Assembly (NCBI GenBank): GCA_017849585.1
Contig: JAFIGT010000039.1
Span: forward strand, 186,001 to 250,000
Direction: 5' to 3'
DNA from: Verrucomicrobium sp.
GTDB taxonomy: Bacteria > Verrucomicrobiota > Verrucomicrobiia > Methylacidiphilales > UBA1321
DNA: 64,000 bases
Shown: piece after piece, positions 40,586 through 51,830 of the stretch
Numbering within the stretch: position 1 is the stretch's first letter
Layout: each line of letters begins with the position of its first letter
Translations under genes and position numbers: made by a program
The notes under the pieces: generated by a model
What the model was told of the DNA's origin: nothing
Databases searched by the model: none
The model's input: the letters and a program-made list of their open reading frames with translations, nothing else

Positions 40586-41902
40586 TCAGCTTTGGTAGAC
40601 GATGCGGCCACCGACGATGGTGTGGGTGGCGCGACCGCGCAACTCCCAACCATGGAAGGGCGTGTTGCGGGAGAGCGATTGGAATTGATTCTTGTCCACT
40701 GTCCACTCGAGTGACGGGTTGATCACGGTCACATCGGCGTCTTTACCCGGCGTCAGTGTGCCCTTGTCGAGGTGCAGCAATCGGGCTGGGTTGATCGTCA
40801 GCTTGGCCAGCATGTCCGACCAATCGAGCACTTGCGGTTCGATCAGCGTCTTGATGAAAATTGCCAACTCGGTCTCGAGTCCGAGAATGCCGAAGGGCGC
40901 ATAGTTGAACTCCACTTCCTTCTCGTACTCGCAATGCGGCGCGTGGTCGCTCGCGAGAATTTCGATGGTGCCGTCGGAAAGGCCTTCGAGCAGCGCCTCC
41001 TGATCGCGCTTGGTGCGCAGAGGCGGATTCATCTTGAAATTCGTGTTGTAGCCTTCCGTGTCGCCGTCGGTAAGGGCGATATGGTGGGGCATCACTTCGC
41101 CGGAAATCTTGATGCCGCGTTGGCGCGCTTCGCGGACGATGCGGACTGAGCCTGCACTCGAAAGGTGTTGGCAGTGAATGACTGCGCCCGTCAATTCCGA
41201 GAGCATGGCGTTGCGGCTGACGATGACTTCCTCCGCAATGGCGGGCCAGCCCGGCAGACCGAGCACGGTGCTCCAGTAGCCTTCATTGATCACACCGCCG
41301 GCGGACAGATTGTAGTCTTGGCAATGATCGAAAATCGGCACATCGAACATCTTGGTGTATTCGAGCGCGCGACGCATGAGTTCATTATTCTGAACGCAAT
41401 TGCCGTCGTCGGTGATGGCGATGACGCCCGCCTTCACCAGCGAGCCGATCGGGGCGAGGAGTTCCCCGGCCATTTTCTGGGAGATGCAGCCGGTGGGATA
41501 AACATTGATCAGCGCGGTTTCTTCGGCGCGTTGCAGGATCCACGCAATCGTGCTCGCGCTGTCCGCATGGGGCGTCGTGTTGGGCATGGCCACGATGGTG
41601 GTGAATCCACCCACCGCCGCGGCGCGTGTACCGGTCGCGATGGTTTCCTTGGCCGATTGACCGGGCTCGCGCAAATGCACGTGGAGATCGATCAGGCCGG
41701 GAGTGACAAATTGACCGCGGACATCAATTGTGCGCCAGTTGACACCTTGTGGCAGTTGATTCGGATCGGCGATCTTGCCGTTGTGAAGATAAAGATCTCC
41801 CACTTCGTCACGCTTGTTGGCGGGGTCGATGATGCGACCGCCATGGAGGCAGATCGATTCGACGGGAGCATCGCTCAGTTTTTTTAGGTGAGACGGAATC
41901 AT
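40586..41902 (-). CDS. pyrC: Dihydroorotase (type I)
   Basis: 438-residue amidohydrolase that closes carbamoyl aspartate to dihydroorotate in pyrimidine synthesis. The metal motif is DLHVHLREPGQ; later ligands are in FDHCQDYNL, VIHCQHLSSAG and the catalytic Asp region ILASDHAPH. The length and HLREPGQ fit type I dihydroorotase. The start overlaps the pyrB stop by four bases, so pyrR-pyrB-pyrC are coupled. Confidence 0.95.
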   Translation of the reverse strand: MIPSHLKKLSDAPVESICLHGGRIIDPANKRDEVGDLYLHNGKIADPNQLPQGVNWRTIDVRGQFVTPGLIDLHVHLREPGQSAKETIATGTRAAAVGGFTTIVAMPNTTPHADSASTIAWILQRAEETALINVYPTGCISQKMAGELLAPIGSLVKAGVIAITDDGNCVQNNELMRRALEYTKMFDVPIFDHCQDYNLSAGGVINEGYWSTVLGLPGWPAIAEEVIVSRNAMLSELTGAVIHCQHLSSAGSVRIVREARQRGIKISGEVMPHHIALTDGDTEGYNTNFKMNPPLRTKRDQEALLEGLSDGTIEILASDHAPHCEYEKEVEFNYAPFGILGLETELAIFIKTLIEPQVLDWSDMLAKLTINPARLLHLDKGTLTPGKDADVTVINPSLEWTVDKNQFQSLSRNTPFHGWELRGRATHTIVGGRIVYQS

Positions 41903-42870
41903 GCCTTCACTCCTTGGGGACCGCTGCCGCCGGTGAGGAGATAGAGGACGGCCATGCGGATGGCGAGCCCGTTGGTGACCTGTTGCAAAATCACGGAGTT
42001 CAAGCCGTCGGCGAGTTCGCTGGCGATTTCCACGCCGCGATTGATCGGGCCGGGGTGCATGATCATCACGTCGGGCCGACAGCGCTTGAAGCGTTCGTGC
42101 GTGAGACCGAACAGGGAAATGTATTCGCCGAGCGAGGGGAAAAGTTGTTGTTTCTGCCGTTCGTGCTGGATGCGCAGCAGCATGATCACATTGGCTTCAG
42201 CGAGCACGTCGTCGATGCGATGACTGATTTTAACGCCAAGGCGGCGGAACTCTTGCGGCAGGAGGGTGGTGGGACCGACGAGGGTGACTTCCGCGCCGAG
42301 CTTGCCCATGGCCCAGATGTTGGAGCGGGCGACGCGGCTGAACTGGATGTCGCCGACAATGGCGATTTTCAATCCTGCGAGTTTCTGGTCGGCGGGTGCG
42401 TCATGCTTGCCGAATTTTTCGAGAATGGTGAAGGTGTCGAGCAACGCTTGCGTCGGGTGCTCATGTGCTCCATCACCCGCATTGATCACGCCGGCATGCA
42501 GTCGTTCCGCGAGGAACTGCGGGGCTCCGGCGGCGGGGTGGCGCAAAATGATGATATCCGAATTCATCGCCTGCAAATTCAGGCCGGTGTCCTTGAGCGT
42601 CTCGCCCTTCTTGAAGGAGCTGCTTTCGCTCGCGATGCTTACGACGTCGGCGCTGAGGCGCTTCGCGGCGAGTTCAAAGGAAGTTCGCGTGCGCGTGCTC
42701 GGTTCGACAAAGAGATTGATGACCGTTTTGCCGCGCAGGGAGGGCACTTTCTTGATCGAACGGCTCAGTACTTCCTTGAAGGCGCGGGCGGTGTCGTGAA
42801 TGAGTCCGATCTCGGCCGGATCGAGTGGCCGGATGGCGAGTAGGTCCTTGTGTTTCCAAACCGTGCTCAT
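41899..42870 (-). CDS. pyrB: Aspartate carbamoyltransferase catalytic chain
   Basis: 323-residue enzyme making carbamoyl aspartate, the committed pyrimidine step. The carbamoyl-phosphate motif is FVEPSTRTRTSFELAAKRL; other signatures are HEHPTQALLDTF and MHPGPINRGVEIASEL. There is no regulatory chain gene pyrI nearby, so it is probably an unregulated trimer or a complex with PyrC, as in other bacteria with adjacent pyrB and pyrC. Overlaps pyrR by four bases. Confidence 0.97.
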   Translation of the reverse strand: MSTVWKHKDLLAIRPLDPAEIGLIHDTARAFKEVLSRSIKKVPSLRGKTVINLFVEPSTRTRTSFELAAKRLSADVVSIASESSSFKKGETLKDTGLNLQAMNSDIIILRHPAAGAPQFLAERLHAGVINAGDGAHEHPTQALLDTFTILEKFGKHDAPADQKLAGLKIAIVGDIQFSRVARSNIWAMGKLGAEVTLVGPTTLLPQEFRRLGVKISHRIDDVLAEANVIMLLRIQHERQKQQLFPSLGEYISLFGLTHERFKRCRPDVMIMHPGPINRGVEIASELADGLNSVILQQVTNGLAIRMAVLYLLTGGSGPQGVKA

Positions 42871-43424
42871 GCCTTTTGCACCTCCACGGCGTCGCGGCCG
42901 TCGACTTCTTTTACCTTAACGGACACGTGGTCGGCAAACTCTGTCGGTACGGTCTGGCCGATATAATCTGCGGCAATTGGCAGGCGGCGATGTCCTCGGT
43001 CGATGAGGGTGGCGAGCTGGATGGCCTCGGGGCGGCCCAAATCGTTCAGGGCATTGAGGGCGGCCCGGACGCTGCGTCCGGTGTAGAGGACGTCGTCGAC
43101 GAGGATGATCACCCGGTCAGTGATGTCGAAGGGGACATCCGTCACATGCGGAATCGGACGGCGCAGTTCGAGGTCGTCGCGATGGAAAGTGATATCGATC
43201 TGGCCGACAGGAATCTGGATGCCGGTGGACTGGTGCAACTCGGCCGCGATGCGTTGGGCGAGGGTGACGCCCCGGGTCGGCAAACCGACAAGGGCCAGTT
43301 TGGAGGGAGAGGGATTACGCTGGGCGATCTCGGCGCTAATGCGGGTGAGCGCTTGGTGGATGTCCTGTTCGGTAAGGACAGCGCGACCGCCATTCGTTGC
43401 GGAAGTCGAAGGGGAGTACGACAC
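42867..43424 (-). CDS. pyrR: Bifunctional pyr operon regulator / uracil phosphoribosyltransferase
   Basis: 185-residue PRTase-fold protein. The PRPP-binding loop is VILVDDVLYTGRSVRAALN. PyrR binds UMP/UTP and the pyr mRNA leader to cause attenuation in Gram-positives; in other phyla its RNA-binding role is not always kept. The leader before this operon begins at the small gene 43432-43677, and no obvious anti-terminator hairpin pair was found, so regulation here is open. Coupled with pyrB by ATGA overlap. Confidence 0.95.
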   Translation of the reverse strand: MSYSPSTSATNGGRAVLTEQDIHQALTRISAEIAQRNPSPSKLALVGLPTRGVTLAQRIAAELHQSTGIQIPVGQIDITFHRDDLELRRPIPHVTDVPFDITDRVIILVDDVLYTGRSVRAALNALNDLGRPEAIQLATLIDRGHRRLPIAADYIGQTVPTEFADHVSVKVKEVDGRDAVEVQKA

Positions 43425-43431
43425 GGGCGCG

Positions 43432-43677
43432 CTAATTGTTGGTTTTGCCCGCCGTCTGAGTTAGCGGGATTTGGGCAAAACGATTGCGCGAAGCCCGCCA
43501 AGCTGAGCGATGCTTTACGATCCAGTCCAACAAAGCCTTCTCGAACCCGATATCAATCCCGGCTTTTTCGCTTTCGATCCACTTGTGTTTGAGGATCTCT
43601 TCGCGCTCCGCCAGGAATTCCTGATACAGGGCAGAATTCTTGAAGAAACTATCCGGTTCCTTCGATGCGTCCGTCAT
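43432..43677 (-). CDS. Small conserved-looking protein at the head of the pyr operon
   Basis: 81-residue hydrophilic protein without signal peptide or membrane segment. It contains FLAEREEILKHKWIESEKAG and DIGFEKALLDWIVKHRSAWR, a pattern typical of small helical proteins found in several Gram-negative phyla but without a known function to me. Its stop is seven bases before the pyrR start on the same strand, so it is probably co-transcribed with the pyr genes. The short gap upstream (43678-43735) separates it from mrp. Confidence 0.75.
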   Translation of the reverse strand: MTDASKEPDSFFKNSALYQEFLAEREEILKHKWIESEKAGIDIGFEKALLDWIVKHRSAWRASRNRFAQIPLTQTAGKTNN

Positions 43678-43735: not shown

Positions 43736-44785
43736 TCACGCGCCTTTGGTATTACGCAGAATAATTTTAGAGGCTTCTATAATTTGTTGTGAGCTAATGG
43801 CTTGCAAATCTCGTGATACGATCGGCCTCCCAGTGTCTCCGGATTCGCGAATTGGTATTTCAATAGGCACTTGAGCGAGAAGGGGGACTTTGAGCCGCTC
43901 GGCTTCCTTCTGGCCACCCGAACTGCCGAAGATATCGTAACGCTTGCCGTCGCTTGGGCAGAGGAAGTAACTCATGTTTTCGACAATGCCGAGCACGGGA
44001 ACGTTGACCTTCTCGAACATCGTCGCCGCCTTGCGCGCATCGATCAAGGCGACTTCCTGAGGCGTAGTCACGATCACGGCACCCGATAGCGCGACGGTCT
44101 GCACAATTGTCAACTGAATGTCGCCCGTACCGGGGGGTAGGTCCAATATCAAATAATCGAGCTCACCCCACGCGACGGAACGGAGGAATTGCTGCGTATA
44201 GCGTGTGACCATGGGGCCGCGCAGAATTGCCGGAGCGGTATCCTCCAGCAAAAAGCCCATACTCATCAACTTCACCCCATGCGCCTCGATTGGAATGATC
44301 TGGCCGTCGTCCGTGCCGGTCGGTCGCTCTTTGCTGCCGAACATGAGTGCGACGCTCGGGCCATAAATATCGCAATCACACAGTCCGACGCGCTGACCTT
44401 GCAATTGGAGTGCCACGGCGAGATTCGCCGCGATGGTCGACTTACCGACGCCGCCCTTGCCACTGGCCACGGCGATGACGTGCTTCACGCCGGGAATCTC
44501 GTTTTGCGGCAGCCCGCCTGCCTGACTGACCGCTTGCAGCGGGGCATTGCTTTCGACATGCACATCGGCGAGGGTCACGCCGGGAATTGCTTTCAAGGCG
44601 GCGGCGACGCTTTGGCGCAACGCCTCGGGGATGTTGGCGTCGGCGGTCGTGATGGCGATGCGCACGCCGACCTTGCCGCCGTCAATGCTGATGCCTTTGA
44701 CCAGGCCAAAGGAGACGATGTCACGGCTGAAGCCGGGGTATTTGACGGTTTTGAGCGTATCGAGAATTTGAGGTTCGGTGAGCAT
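43736..44785 (-). CDS. mrp: Mrp/NBP35-family P-loop ATPase with MIP18-type N-terminal domain
   Basis: 349-residue Fe-S carrier-type protein. Residues 1-80 form a DUF59/MIP18-like domain. The deviant Walker A is VASGKGGVGKST (near residue 110), with DLPPGTGDIQ as the switch region. The usual CxxC motif that binds a shared cluster at the dimer interface reads LCPSDG (Cys276, Asp279), so the second Cys is lost. It lies 148 bases downstream of iscS on the same strand. It may not carry a cluster in the standard way. Confidence 0.9.
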   Translation of the reverse strand: MLTEPQILDTLKTVKYPGFSRDIVSFGLVKGISIDGGKVGVRIAITTADANIPEALRQSVAAALKAIPGVTLADVHVESNAPLQAVSQAGGLPQNEIPGVKHVIAVASGKGGVGKSTIAANLAVALQLQGQRVGLCDCDIYGPSVALMFGSKERPTGTDDGQIIPIEAHGVKLMSMGFLLEDTAPAILRGPMVTRYTQQFLRSVAWGELDYLILDLPPGTGDIQLTIVQTVALSGAVIVTTPQEVALIDARKAATMFEKVNVPVLGIVENMSYFLCPSDGKRYDIFGSSGGQKEAERLKVPLLAQVPIEIPIRESGDTGRPIVSRDLQAISSQQIIEASKIILRNTKGA

Positions 44786-44933: not shown

Positions 44934-46202
44934 TTAATGGGCAGGTTTGCCGGACACACTCGCGGCGCGCTCGGTGAACGACTGGCCGATGCCGGTCGGC
45001 GAGATCACGGAATCAATCTTGTGCTCTTGAAACTCCTGCCACATGGGCGACATGGTGCGCAGGCGATCCACGATCTTCGCAAACGTTTCCACCACGTAAT
45101 CGACATCGTCGTCGGTATTATCCTTGCCGAGACTCATGATAATGTTGCCTTGGGCGAGGGCGTGGTCGAGTCCGATGGCACTGAGTACATGAGAAACCTT
45201 GAGCGATTTGCTGACGCAGCTCGAGCCACTCGCGACGGCGATGCCATTGAGATCAAAAAGGAGAAGCTGGCCTTCGCCTTCGATGAACTCGGTGCTCCAG
45301 TTGAGCGAATTGCAGATGCGGTCCGTGCCAGGGACGGGACCGTTGAGCTTGATGTATTGGATGCGGTTCATCAGGCCATCATAGAGACGCTTTTGCAGTC
45401 GGCTGACATGGGCGATGCGGTCGCCCATATCGCGCAGGGCGACTTCCGCCGCCACGCCCGCGCCGATGATGGCGGGAACGTTTTCCGTGCCTGCGCGACG
45501 CCCGTTTTCCTGCACGCCGCCATGGATCAGGGAGGTGACGCGCGCCTTGCGGCTGCGGTAGAGCACGCCCACGCCTTTCGGGCCGTAGAAGCGGTGAGGA
45601 GAGAGGGAGAGAAGCTGGCATCCGAGGCTCTGCACATCGATCGGGTGCCAACCGGCGGCTGCCACGGCGTCGACGAAGAGGGAGATGCCTTTTTCCTGCG
45701 TGATCTTGCTGATTTCCTTGATCGGTTCGATGGTGCCGATGTCGTGATTCACGAGGTGGACGCTGACGAGAATGGTCTTGTCGGTGATGGCGGCGCGAAT
45801 GGTTTGCGGGTCGATCTGGCCGATCTCGTTGACGGGCACTTTCGTCGAGGTGAAACCGTGATGTTTTTCAAGGTACTCGATCGAGTTGATGACGGACGGA
45901 TGCTCCGTCGCGGCGAGGACGATGTGGTTGCCCTTGCGTTCGTTCGCATCGGCAAAGCCCTTGATCGCGAGATTGGCCGATTCCGTACCGCCCGAAGTGA
46001 AGATGATGTCGTCGGGGCTTTCCGCATTGATCAACGTCGCGATTTGCTCGCGCGCCGTCTTGACTCCATCGCGCACGCGCAGGCCGAAGCGGTGCAAGCT
46101 CGACGGACTGCCGAAGGCTTCGGTGAAATAGGGGCGCATGGCCTCGAACGCTTCCGGAAGGAGCGGAGTCGAAGCTTGGTGATCAAGATAAACGGATTTC
46201 AT
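44934..46202 (-). CDS. iscS: IscS/NifS-like cysteine desulfurase homologue lacking the PLP lysine
   Basis: 422-residue class V aminotransferase-fold protein aligned to IscS by motifs: YLDHQASTPLLPEA, FTSGGTESANLAI, AATEHPSV (His101), FVDAVAAAG (Asp178) and the mobile Cys loop ASGSSCVSKS (Cys329). The internal-aldimine lysine motif SGHK reads SPHR here, so the PLP lysine is Arg204. Two other positions that contact PLP in IscS also differ (His153 for Asn, Ala181 for Gln). Residue 329 still offers a Cys. Enzymatic desulfurase activity is thus doubtful. It stands between iscU and mrp; the last 40 residues resemble ordinary IscS in length. Confidence 0.85.
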   Translation of the reverse strand: MKSVYLDHQASTPLLPEAFEAMRPYFTEAFGSPSSLHRFGLRVRDGVKTAREQIATLINAESPDDIIFTSGGTESANLAIKGFADANERKGNHIVLAATEHPSVINSIEYLEKHHGFTSTKVPVNEIGQIDPQTIRAAITDKTILVSVHLVNHDIGTIEPIKEISKITQEKGISLFVDAVAAAGWHPIDVQSLGCQLLSLSPHRFYGPKGVGVLYRSRKARVTSLIHGGVQENGRRAGTENVPAIIGAGVAAEVALRDMGDRIAHVSRLQKRLYDGLMNRIQYIKLNGPVPGTDRICNSLNWSTEFIEGEGQLLLFDLNGIAVASGSSCVSKSLKVSHVLSAIGLDHALAQGNIIMSLGKDNTDDDVDYVVETFAKIVDRLRTMSPMWQEFQEHKIDSVISPTGIGQSFTERAASVSGKPAH

Positions 46203-46303: not shown

Positions 46304-46708
46304 TTATTTCGCGACCGCAGCGTTCTTCTTCTCGTAATCTTCGATGGCCGCCTTGAGGGCTTCCTCGGCGAGAACCGAACAGTGGATCTTCACCGGGGGC
46401 AGGCCACCGAGAGCGTCGACCACTTCCTGGTTCGAGAAGTTTTTGATTTCATCAATCGTGCGGCCCTTGATCAATTCGGTCGCCATGCTGGAAGAAGCGA
46501 TGGCCGATCCGCAGCCAAAAGTTTTGAAGCGGGCGTCCTCGATCTTGCCGTCGCGGATCTTAAGGGAGATCTTCATGATGTCACCACACGCGGCCGCGCC
46601 GACTTCGCCGACGCCGTCGGCCTCGGGCAGGTCGCCCATATTGCGGGGGTTCATGAAGTGGTCCATAACGGTGTCGTTATACAGGGTGTATTCTTTTTGG
46701 TCGCTCAT
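46304..46708 (-). CDS. iscU: Fe-S cluster scaffold protein IscU
   Basis: 134-residue scaffold protein. The three cluster cysteines are present: AACGDIMK (Cys41, with Asp43), FGCGSAIASSS (Cys66) and LPPVKIHCSVLAEEA (Cys110). The LPPVK motif that binds the HscA-type chaperone is intact. It assembles [2Fe-2S] or [4Fe-4S] clusters on sulfur delivered by a cysteine desulfurase. GAGGAGA precedes the start. No hscA or hscB gene is in the window. Confidence 0.95.
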   Translation of the reverse strand: MSDQKEYTLYNDTVMDHFMNPRNMGDLPEADGVGEVGAAACGDIMKISLKIRDGKIEDARFKTFGCGSAIASSSMATELIKGRTIDEIKNFSNQEVVDALGGLPPVKIHCSVLAEEALKAAIEDYEKKNAAVAK

Positions 46709-46760: not shown

Positions 46761-47276
46761 CTATATGGTAGCGCCATTCGGCGGGCTGACCACGGTATCG
46801 GCGATGGACGCCACGGATTCCGCCCTGCTGGGGACGGCTTGATGCGGCATCTTGCGCACCTTGGCCAAGGCTACTTCCTTTGGCATCATCAAATCTTGCA
46901 AGGTCATCTCACTGAATACTTCGGTTACCCGATTCTGGGCTTCCGAGAATACAGCACAAAGCGTGCACGAATCGGCTCGTTCGCAACCGGGCTCTTCCAG
47001 GCAGCGCTGAAAAGCGATCTTGCCCTCAATGGTCTCAATGACCTCGAGTACGGTGATCTCCTGCGGGCGTCGTGCCAAGGCGAAACCGCCGCGCGCGCCT
47101 TGCCGGGAGCGGATATGGCCTGCTTTGGCCAGACTCTGGAGAATTTTAGCCAGAAAGCCTTTCGGAATGCGCTCGCCCTTGCTGATGTCGTCGATCATCA
47201 CGAGCCGACCCTCCGGCTGCTTGGCCAGATGGATCAACGCCAATAAGGCATATTCACCAGCTTGGGTAATTTTCAT
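46761..47276 (-). CDS. iscR: Rrf2-family regulator, IscR-like
   Basis: 171-residue winged-helix regulator (AGEYALLALIHLAKQPEGR at the N-terminus, HIRSRQGARGGFALAR as the wing). The cluster ligands sit at Cys92, Cys98 and Cys104, the same numbers as E. coli IscR, while the fourth ligand, His107 in E. coli, is Cys107 here (CERADSCTLC). It probably senses Fe-S status with a bound [2Fe-2S] cluster and controls the downstream isc genes. The upstream gap 47277-47399 is AT-rich and should contain the operon promoter. Confidence 0.92.
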   Translation of the reverse strand: MKITQAGEYALLALIHLAKQPEGRLVMIDDISKGERIPKGFLAKILQSLAKAGHIRSRQGARGGFALARRPQEITVLEVIETIEGKIAFQRCLEEPGCERADSCTLCAVFSEAQNRVTEVFSEMTLQDLMMPKEVALAKVRKMPHQAVPSRAESVASIADTVVSPPNGATI

Positions 47277-48449: not shown

Positions 48450-51400
48450 TCAGGCCGGTTTGGAATTTTCGTCAGCGAGGGTTGTCTCCACAGCAGGTTC
48501 GGGTGTCGCGGAGCGAAGCCACCACGCGAGCGCAACGATCGCTACGGCTGCGATGCTGAGGGGCCATGCCTGATTTTCATACGCAGGGCCACCCTTTTCG
48601 GCAAAGAGTGCGATCTCGGGCAGTAAATATCGCAGAGCGGTCACGGCGAAGATCAATGCCGCATCAAAGCGCCAGAGTTTCCAGACGAGGAAGATTGCCA
48701 GTAACCAGTGGAATTCGCTCATGGCCGTTTCGCGGATGAACTCGTGCACGGTATCGGCGTGGAGCGCGGAATAAGCTGGGTAGAGCAGTAGTAATGACCA
48801 GACCACTCTCGGCCAGCGGCGATGGAGCAGTACTGCGATGGAGGCGACGAAAGCGTAGCGTAGCACCGTATCATAGCCGGATTGCACGGCATTGATCAGT
48901 GTGGCGAGCCACGGCACGGCGACATTTACGGACGGGTAATCAAAAGACAGGTTCGGCTTTTCCTCCGTGACAAACGTCAGCCACGTTTCGAAATAAGTGG
49001 TCACCCACAGCAGGGCGAGACTTAGGAGCAGTAGCGCAAAGAAGTCCGGCATCGACCGGCGCAGCGTCGGCCAGTCAAATTTCGGCCAGCGCAGATCGCT
49101 CAATTTCCAGCCGAACGCCCACGCCATCAAGCCGAGCACCACGCTCAACCGCGCGCCATAATTCAACCACGAGTAGGTCAGGCTTACAGCATCGCCGCCG
49201 ATGCGTTGCAGTAGGTAGTGATTGAGTGGCGTGGTGGTTGAGTACCCGGAGTAGAACCACGGTAGTGAATTTAGCTTTTCGATGATCACCAGCGCCGTGG
49301 GGGCGAGGCTGATCAGGAACCCTGCCTTCCATGGTATGATGCCGCGTCGCAGCAGGATCACGAAGGCGATGATTACGAGGCCGCCGATTACGAGGGAGCT
49401 CCAGCTGGAGATTTGACCCAGGATCGCATCTTTCCAGCCGCCATACTTTTTCTCTTGTTCGCGATTCCACTCGTCGGGAACTTTTACGTAACGAGTGAAG
49501 TTGACCGGTTCATCTCCTTGGATTGCGATTTGTGTCCGCAAGCGGGAATCGCCCCAATCCCAATCTTCACGTTCCCAGGAGAAGTAATAATCGCGGCGAT
49601 GGAGTTGCTGTGTCAGGCGATCCTCTACGAGTTTCTCGTTGTTGAAATCTACGCCGTAGTTCTGGACGAGGTGTTGTTTGGCCAGTTCCAATGCGGCGGC
49701 CTTTTCCAGGGAGGCTCCATGGGCCTCTCGAGGCAGCGTATGGCGCCACTTCACCAGCTTGCCGTCATAGTCGAGCGTCAGGTTAAATTCCTCCCGCTGG
49801 CGAACGCGAAAATAACGAATGTTCCAGACCAAGTCGGGCCATTCGGTTTCAAAGAGGGCCGCGATTTCGTCTGGGGTGCCATGCTCGCTCAGGTAGTCAT
49901 TTGCGGTTGAGTTGGACCTCAGGCTCACGATCCGGTGATAGGTGGAGGGATCTTGTCCGCGTTCGCGCAGGATTTTGTCCGCTGCGTTGGCGATCTCTTG
50001 CCGTGAGAGTGTGATGTGACCGTAATCTTCCATCGGTCGATACGGCATGTCGCCAGTTTCCTGCACTAGGAAGATGAGTCCGGCGGTGATGAGAAAGATC
50101 ACGCGTTGTACGCGGGTCAGGATGAACGGTTGGAAATTCCACGCGAGGGTTGGCTCCTCCGGTACAGTGGTTGGATGCGCTTCGTCCACTTCCTCCGGTA
50201 ATTCAGGAGGCGTCTGTCCGGTGCGCTGGTAATGCACGCCCACCATCCACAGTAGAATCGGCCACACACTCACCAGAACTGCCCCGAATTGATTCAGCGG
50301 ATCGGCGGATTGAAAGACCACGAAGCTGCTCAGCCAGCAGTCGTAAAGGTAATGGCCCGTCAACGTTGCCACGATGCCGAAGCGCACCATCGCTGCGCCC
50401 CAGAGAATACCCTCCGCGGTCAGTTCGCACCCGCGCAAATAGCCCGGCATCTGCGGATAATTGCTATGCAGAAACGCCCATGTCGCGCACGCCACGACCA
50501 GTCCAATCCATTTGTATCGGCCCCGCAATAATTTCCAGTATAAAAGAATGCCAACAATCCGGTAGGTAAACTCCTCCGTCCATGAAGCGCTCATGCCAAC
50601 CTGCATGCCACTGATCCATGGGATGGGGCCGCCGATAATCTTGGAGTAATCGATCTCCACCGGAGACCAGGCGCCGAAGTGATTTGCCACCACGTAAAAC
50701 GTACAGACATAGCCGATGCCGAAGCAGGCCAGTACGATGCCCACACCCAGACCCCGCACCGTCTCTGGTTGATACAGGCTGTTGCGGCCCATTGCCCGCG
50801 AGAAGGAAAGTTTATCTGGTAACTGCTCGCGATAAATGGCGTCCGCCACGAGGGAAAGTAAATACGCGCCTAATAGGGTTGCAACAGTCCCCAGCAGGCT
50901 GCCCCCAACCTGGGTGAAAAGATAGCTGCCCCACTTTTCGGTGGTCGGATAGTTGCTGTAGATATCCGGCAGGTTATTCCATGTCGCGGCCAATTCCACC
51001 ACGCCGAAGAGAATCAACCAGCGATATGGAATGGCCGTGCGCCACCGCAGTCGATGCTTGCTCACGTACAGAACGAACAACACGGCCATGCCAATCATGA
51101 TCGGCACCGACGCCGATTGCGCGATTTGCTGGAAGACCGCATTGGTCGAGCGTTGCGTGCGATATTTCAGTATCCACGCTTCCGGCACCTTCACATTCTC
51201 ATTGTAGCTGCCTACCTTGTCGCCCTTCACCGTGGCGTGTAGTTGGTAGGTCGCATCGCCTAGGCGTAAATCGTCCTGTTCCCACGTGAAATAGTAGTCC
51301 GTGCGATTGGGTAATTTCTTCGAACTATCCTCCACCAGCCGTAATTTGGCGAATGGATGTTGCGTCACATGCTGCTTCAGGAAATCCTCCGCCACGACGC

Positions 51401-51830
51401 GCGCTTGCTCTCGTGTCAGGAACGGGCGCTTGGCCTTCTCCGGGATCGTATGGAACAAACCGACGAAGTGACCTTGCGGATCGTAGGCCACGCTGATCTC
51501 CTCTTCCTGCTCGGGTTTGAAAAAACGCGTCGTCCAATACCAGATATTGACCCCTTCGCTCACCTTCTTTTCCAGCGTGGGAAGGCCGTACTCTTTCTCG
51601 ATGAAATTCTTCTCCGTGCCATCCTCCCCGAACTGCGTGGCTGCGAGATAGCCCTTCAGGTCATGGCCAATCAATTTCAGAAATTCGCGCGACTTGGCTT
51701 CCGCAGCCGCCTCGGTGATCGAAAATTGCAGGGCGGCGGTGGGAAACGCGCGGTTCCAAAAGAAAGCCCCGGCCAAAAGGCTTAATACGGCGATCGCCGC
51801 TCCAAGGAGAAAACGGGGAGAGATACGCAT
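48450..51830 (-). CDS. Giant CPBP (Abi/CAAX-type) intramembrane protease-like protein with internal duplication
   Basis: 1126-residue membrane protein. Its first half has an N-terminal extracytoplasmic domain and about eight helices with the CPBP motif WTEEFTYR (Glu419, Glu420, Arg424), FLHSNY and HYLYD as the further conserved His motifs. The second half repeats the domain order: YYFTWEQDD...VKVPEAW in the first matches YYFSWERED...VKVPDEW in the second. Helices then follow without a recognisable catalytic EExxxR motif, so only one protease site is expected. This is well above the usual 200-300 residues of the family. It probably cleaves or processes membrane substrates. Confidence 0.75.
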   Translation of the reverse strand: MRISPRFLLGAAIAVLSLLAGAFFWNRAFPTAALQFSITEAAAEAKSREFLKLIGHDLKGYLAATQFGEDGTEKNFIEKEYGLPTLEKKVSEGVNIWYWTTRFFKPEQEEEISVAYDPQGHFVGLFHTIPEKAKRPFLTREQARVVAEDFLKQHVTQHPFAKLRLVEDSSKKLPNRTDYYFTWEQDDLRLGDATYQLHATVKGDKVGSYNENVKVPEAWILKYRTQRSTNAVFQQIAQSASVPIMIGMAVLFVLYVSKHRLRWRTAIPYRWLILFGVVELAATWNNLPDIYSNYPTTEKWGSYLFTQVGGSLLGTVATLLGAYLLSLVADAIYREQLPDKLSFSRAMGRNSLYQPETVRGLGVGIVLACFGIGYVCTFYVVANHFGAWSPVEIDYSKIIGGPIPWISGMQVGMSASWTEEFTYRIVGILLYWKLLRGRYKWIGLVVACATWAFLHSNYPQMPGYLRGCELTAEGILWGAAMVRFGIVATLTGHYLYDCWLSSFVVFQSADPLNQFGAVLVSVWPILLWMVGVHYQRTGQTPPELPEEVDEAHPTTVPEEPTLAWNFQPFILTRVQRVIFLITAGLIFLVQETGDMPYRPMEDYGHITLSRQEIANAADKILRERGQDPSTYHRIVSLRSNSTANDYLSEHGTPDEIAALFETEWPDLVWNIRYFRVRQREEFNLTLDYDGKLVKWRHTLPREAHGASLEKAAALELAKQHLVQNYGVDFNNEKLVEDRLTQQLHRRDYYFSWEREDWDWGDSRLRTQIAIQGDEPVNFTRYVKVPDEWNREQEKKYGGWKDAILGQISSWSSLVIGGLVIIAFVILLRRGIIPWKAGFLISLAPTALVIIEKLNSLPWFYSGYSTTTPLNHYLLQRIGGDAVSLTYSWLNYGARLSVVLGLMAWAFGWKLSDLRWPKFDWPTLRRSMPDFFALLLLSLALLWVTTYFETWLTFVTEEKPNLSFDYPSVNVAVPWLATLINAVQSGYDTVLRYAFVASIAVLLHRRWPRVVWSLLLLYPAYSALHADTVHEFIRETAMSEFHWLLAIFLVWKLWRFDAALIFAVTALRYLLPEIALFAEKGGPAYENQAWPLSIAAVAIVALAWWLRSATPEPAVETTLADENSKPA

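Follow-up and report, generated by a model that had tools for sequence, protein, structure and literature searches.

A widespread Verrucomicrobiota IscS relative with a rebuilt active-site pocket is probably an assembly platform and not the usual sulfur-releasing enzyme

The window analysed here, a stretch of 64,000 nucleotides from a Verrucomicrobiia genome (GCA_017849585.1, contig JAFIGT010000039.1), carries on its minus strand the gene order Rrf2/IscR-like regulator, IscU, a lysine-less IscS/NifS homologue that we call IscS*, Mrp/ApbC and a small conserved ORF. The regulator gene (46761..47276) encodes the Cys-x5-Cys-x5-Cys pattern of cluster-binding Rrf2 proteins, and the product of iscU (46304..46708), an ISC-type scaffold, keeps Y3, C37, D39, C63, the LPPVK motif, H105 and C106. 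The iscS* gene occupies 44934..46202 and encodes 422 aa. Downstream of it lie mrp/apbC (43736..44785), which encodes an Fe-S carrier P-loop NTPase, and the small ORF of 81 aa (43432..43677), which matches DUF4032 weakly and is found together with mrp at many loci of Verrucomicrobiota. The mrp unit is followed directly, on the same strand, by pyrR-pyrB-pyrC-like genes (40586-43424), recognised from their translations. The minus strand also encodes, at 48450-51830, a membrane protein of 1126 aa that has a YcdB/YcdC repeat domain (Pfam DUF4901) and, by eye, a CPBP-protease-like segment. The closest named record to iscS* is that of Verrucomicrobia bacterium Tous-C9LFEB, with 96% identity at the protein level, followed by Candidatus Methylacidiphilaceae bacterium UBA1321.

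IscS* is an IscS homologue by descent and fold, and belongs to the class-V aminotransferases (238 bits against the Pfam profile Aminotran_5). Its nearest NCBIfam families are NifS and IscS, though it falls far under both curated equivalog cutoffs, scoring 438.5 bits against 530.75 for FeS_nifS (TIGR03402) and 367.6 against 643.2 for IscS (TIGR02006). An AlphaFold2 model built from 29 homologues reached a mean pLDDT of 88.4, with low confidence at residues 226-238 and in the Cys loop (327-334). The best PDB matches of this model in Foldseek were NFS1 in its ISCU complexes, Archaeoglobus fulgidus IscS and E. coli IscS (TM 0.84-0.95), a match that supports the IscS fold of the predicted structure and nothing beyond it.

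The residues of IscS* were numbered against the aligned sequence of E. coli K-12 IscS, in which Lys206 is the Schiff-base lysine, Gln183 contacts PLP, Asn155 is an active-site Asn and Arg354 is the substrate-contact arginine. The sequence-only reading had reported that SGHK is replaced by SPHR, with Lys206 becoming Arg204, and the re-read ORF and codon agree with the alignment: the motif is Ser201-Pro202-His203-Arg204, with CGC at 45591..45593 (minus strand, as are all codons given here). The alignment likewise returned the other substitutions of that reading, Asn155 to His153 (CAC, 45744..45746) and Gln183 to Ala181 (45660..45662), as well as the retained mobile-loop Cys329 (45216..45218), which corresponds to E. 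coli Cys328. The list was nevertheless incomplete, since R354 is also replaced, by Ile355 (45138..45140), as are M151 by His149, K187 by Trp185 and G204 by Pro202. T76, H104, D180, S203, H205 and T243 are unchanged.

The loss of catalytic residues is a typical first step of gene decay, and a sequencing error at 45591-45593 was the weak point that the earlier reading had itself named. Such an error is excluded by the 12 genomes of the family, all of which lack the lysine: eleven have Arg, encoded by CGC, CGT or CGG, and one has His, encoded by CAC. A pseudogene is excluded by the dN/dS values between iscS* and its relatives (0.05-0.18), which indicate strong purifying selection, and by the conservation of its residues. 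With the frames intact, the replacement residue conserved and the clade spread across many families, decay or misassembly has a negligible chance of explaining iscS*.

Relatives of iscS* were gathered through genome searches, one scan of named genomes and fetched regions. Taking matches at E <= 4e-122 as clade members, about 47 of 384 sampled Verrucomicrobiia genomes, many of them metagenome assemblies, carry one, and more diverged members also exist; relaxing the cutoff to E <= 1e-92 gives 76 genomes, a number that may include canonical proteins, one canonical NifS having reached 4e-98. The scan of named genomes used a pattern containing SPHR and one other, and was biased to Arg members, so the restriction to Verrucomicrobiota is only indicative. 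Two records titled Betaproteobacteria and Bacteroidetes carry this Verrucomicrobiota gene cluster with 76-77% identity, and these titles look wrong. For the tree we used 76 non-redundant non-canonical sequences and 16 canonical ones, none of them archaeal. One branch separates the two sets, with an SH-aLRT of 99 in a quick tree and support of 100/99 in a careful tree from which ten pocket columns and ten long branches had been removed. As far as these sequences resolve it, iscS* is a member of one monophyletic Verrucomicrobiia clade, and our literature search found no report on a lysine-less IscS family of Verrucomicrobiota.

Within this clade, the position of Lys206 is occupied by Arg in 66 of the 76 sequences, by Gln in four, Lys in four, His in one and Gly in one. 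Asp180 and the loop Cys328 are each invariant (76/76), and the cofactor contacts His104 (68/76), Thr76 (66/76) and His205 (64/76) are largely retained. The residues specific to the clade are conserved to a similar extent, with Trp185 in 75, Pro202 in 73, His149 in 65 and His153 in 64 of the sequences, while the substrate arginine persists in just five of the 76. Judged from this alignment, the pocket is rebuilt and not decayed, through N155H, Q183A, M151H, K187W, G204P and R354I/L, and the strength with which its new residues are conserved suggests that this region still handles a ligand or a reaction.

The distribution of residues is most economically explained by a single basal change from Lys to Arg, followed by Arg to Gln within a single group of the order, Arg to His once and Arg to Lys twice. 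The four members that would have regained the lysine have the motif SPHK, encoded with AAA or AAG in place of the CGN of their relatives, and they retain His153, Ala181, Ile355 and a pocket that is otherwise non-canonical. Because the lysine came back in two lineages without the other canonical residues, we reject its loss as the defining event; the trait of the clade is the rebuilt pocket. The earlier emphasis on the lost PLP lysine and its parallel in A. fulgidus is accurate on both points but places the weight on a residue that is not the key one. A more diverged homologue, present in four genomes of this order of which some are complete, has the motif NPNQ, with Thr76 replaced by Trp and His104 by Gln; the loop Cys and Asp180 are retained, and the gene stands apart from any IscU. 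A homologue at loci L029 and L201 has the motif HFRG, with Lys changed to Gly and the loop Cys retained.

An ISC-type IscU (E about 1e-48) adjoins iscS* in each of the 12 genomes of the family and is also the neighbour of many other clade members; in one further genome it lies on the same contig as the clade member, 69 kb away. Wherever the region is covered, these IscUs retain Tyr3, Cys37, Asp39, Cys63, Lys103, His105 and Cys106, and LPPVK is present in every one except that of locus L168. The C-terminal tail of IscS* (44937..45050, minus strand) comprises an IscU-docking segment (SPMWQEFQ...IDSVI) and about 20 extra residues, ending in SFTERAASVSGKPAH. The motif SFxxHAAxxSGKxAH (44937-45000, minus strand) lies past the usual end of IscS and occurs mainly in IscU-bearing members; the docking tail has its long form in nearly every locus with IscU and tends to be shorter in the others. 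For many clade members, a search for ISC-type IscU found at most SufU-like NifU_N proteins; the genes of such members are often neighbours of mrp. The presence of IscU maps as two changes on the careful tree, where deep support is moderate and one locus (L159) was left unscored, so that the members with IscU almost amount to a single clade. IscU as the sole partner of the clade is rejected, given the many members without it. Of the 60 clade loci for which 2 kb or more of flank could be read, 31 have mrp downstream in the same orientation, whereas it was near no canonical locus among 40, a rough contrast since the canonical flanks mostly extend about 1.5 kb.

The presence of a second, canonical desulfurase had been proposed as a check, and three homologues were found elsewhere in the genome. 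One is SufS, adjoining genes named SufU and SufT-like from their translations; the other two are Lys-bearing NifS homologues with the motifs SGHK and TAHK. The cell is thus apparently not dependent on IscS* for desulfuration.

Among known systems, the closest likeness is to A. fulgidus IscS (PDB 4eb5, 4eb7, 4hvk; D199K mutant 4r5f), in which Asp replaces the lysine, no activity remains and a Cys of the protein serves as a ligand to the IscU-bound cluster (PMC7585200). Both proteins have the same fold, lack the PLP lysine, keep the loop cysteine and have an IscU partner, which at our locus is encoded next door with its functional residues. They are 41-42% identical in the structural match and, by this match and the published description, differ in having Asp or Arg in place of the lysine. 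The essential lysine is missing from Methanosarcina acetivorans IscS1 too, which likewise has an IscU of its own (PMC7585200); by its description it differs in being archaeal, in being one among several iscSU copies and in not having been obtained soluble. With E. coli IscS (TIGR02006) and NifS (TIGR03402), IscS* shares the fold, the loop Cys, D180, most phosphate contacts and the neighbouring iscR and iscU, but it has Lys206, Gln183, Asn155 and Arg354 replaced and scores under both curated cutoffs, and a search of its genome for HscB did not find it. The 3-dehydratases ColD and E1, in which His takes the place of the lysine of the aminotransferase fold and the cofactor is PMP (PMC8987622), resemble IscS* in the replacement of the catalytic Lys, but they belong to another branch of the superfamily, act on nucleotide sugars and have no IscU.

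The explanation that we favour, with somewhat better than even confidence, is that IscS* is an IscS paralogue dead as a cysteine desulfurase, which would serve as a platform for IscU in the manner of the A. fulgidus protein, with Cys329 acting either as a ligand of the cluster or as a persulfide relay. We favour it because the lysine, Gln, Asn and Arg are all replaced while the loop Cys is invariant and the adjoining IscU intact, because other desulfurases exist in the genome, and because of the A. fulgidus precedent, the match to the IscS/NFS1 fold, the purifying selection, the IscU next door in 12 family genomes and the docking tail that is long mainly with IscU. Either of the single changes K206A and Q183E is enough to abolish desulfurase activity in E. 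coli IscS (PMC9978102). We envisage that IscS*, which still has the mobile-loop cysteine, the fold of the IscS dimer and, in its subclade, the IscU-docking tail, would dock the IscU encoded beside it, and that Cys329 would act as ligand or relay while the cluster assembles on IscU. The cluster would then move from IscU to its targets, perhaps via Mrp, and the sulfur could be supplied by sulfide or by a canonical desulfurase that the genome also encodes, either SufS or one of the NifS homologues with SGHK and TAHK. Two observations run against this explanation: most cofactor contacts remain, which a pure scaffold would not need, and the new residues of the pocket are highly conserved, which suggests that the site still deals with some ligand or reaction. 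Since many clade members lack an ISC-type IscU, docking IscU cannot be the sole role either. The scaffold-type IscS of the sequence-only reading is favoured by the neighbouring IscU, by the unaltered Cys loop and by the presence of canonical desulfurases in other parts of the genome, but the partnership with IscU would be only part of the role. The evidence speaks neither for nor against the other suggestion of that reading, a sulfide-using IscS.

The main rival takes the rebuilt pocket as the site of another reaction or of ligand sensing, with PLP or PMP bound non-covalently and His149, His153 and Arg204 as working residues. It would account for clade-specific residues about as conserved as the kept cofactor contacts, for the retention of D180 and most phosphate contacts, for the one close relative with His at position 204 and for the persistence of members without IscU, and enzymes with a Lys-to-His change and PMP are known in the superfamily (PMC8987622). 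However, the neighbours of iscS* are Fe-S genes and nothing links it to a metabolic pathway, and an invariant loop Cys fits sulfur or cluster work; we regard this rival as unlikely. A proposal at the scale of the phylum is possible, if doubtful: that in a whole bacterial IscS family the pocket formed by His149, His153, Trp185, Pro202 and Arg204 has been turned into a site with another function, PLP/PMP-dependent or ligand-sensing, for use in Fe-S assembly, and that the ISC-type IscU is thus paired with a non-desulfurating partner.

It is rather improbable that IscS* is still a cysteine desulfurase, with Arg204 or a His as base and the PLP aldimine formed directly with cysteine. The return of Lys twice in the clade suggests that a positive charge is wanted there, E. 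coli R354K has wild-type activity with DTT, and E. coli K206A yet forms intermediates, very slowly (PMC9978102). Against these stand the inactivity of the E. coli K206A and Q183E proteins (PMC9978102), the change of the lysine, Gln183, Asn155 and Arg354 all together in IscS*, and the failure of the Lys-regaining members to recover the other residues. IscS is dimeric and canonical paralogues are present in the genome, so IscS* might instead be an inactive subunit that forms a heterodimer with a canonical IscS/NifS homologue and tunes or directs it; in trypanosomatid deoxyhypusine synthase, for example, a dead paralogue activates a live one (PMC3663545). The paralogues here are only about 40% identical to IscS* and are encoded elsewhere, and we consider such a pairing very improbable.

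In the cited literature, lysine-less IscS proteins are confined to archaea (A. fulgidus and M. acetivorans IscS1) and could pass for an oddity. A conserved, monophyletic bacterial family, found with and without IscU, amounts to a set of natural variants with Arg, His, Gln or Lys in one pocket, which allow tests of whether IscU needs a working desulfurase alongside, of the role of Cys328 beyond desulfuration and of the origin of the sulfur. Proteins annotated as "IscS" in this group may be without desulfurase activity, and this widespread Verrucomicrobiota relative of IscS is, as its conserved changes suggest, probably an assembly platform and not the usual sulfur-releasing enzyme.
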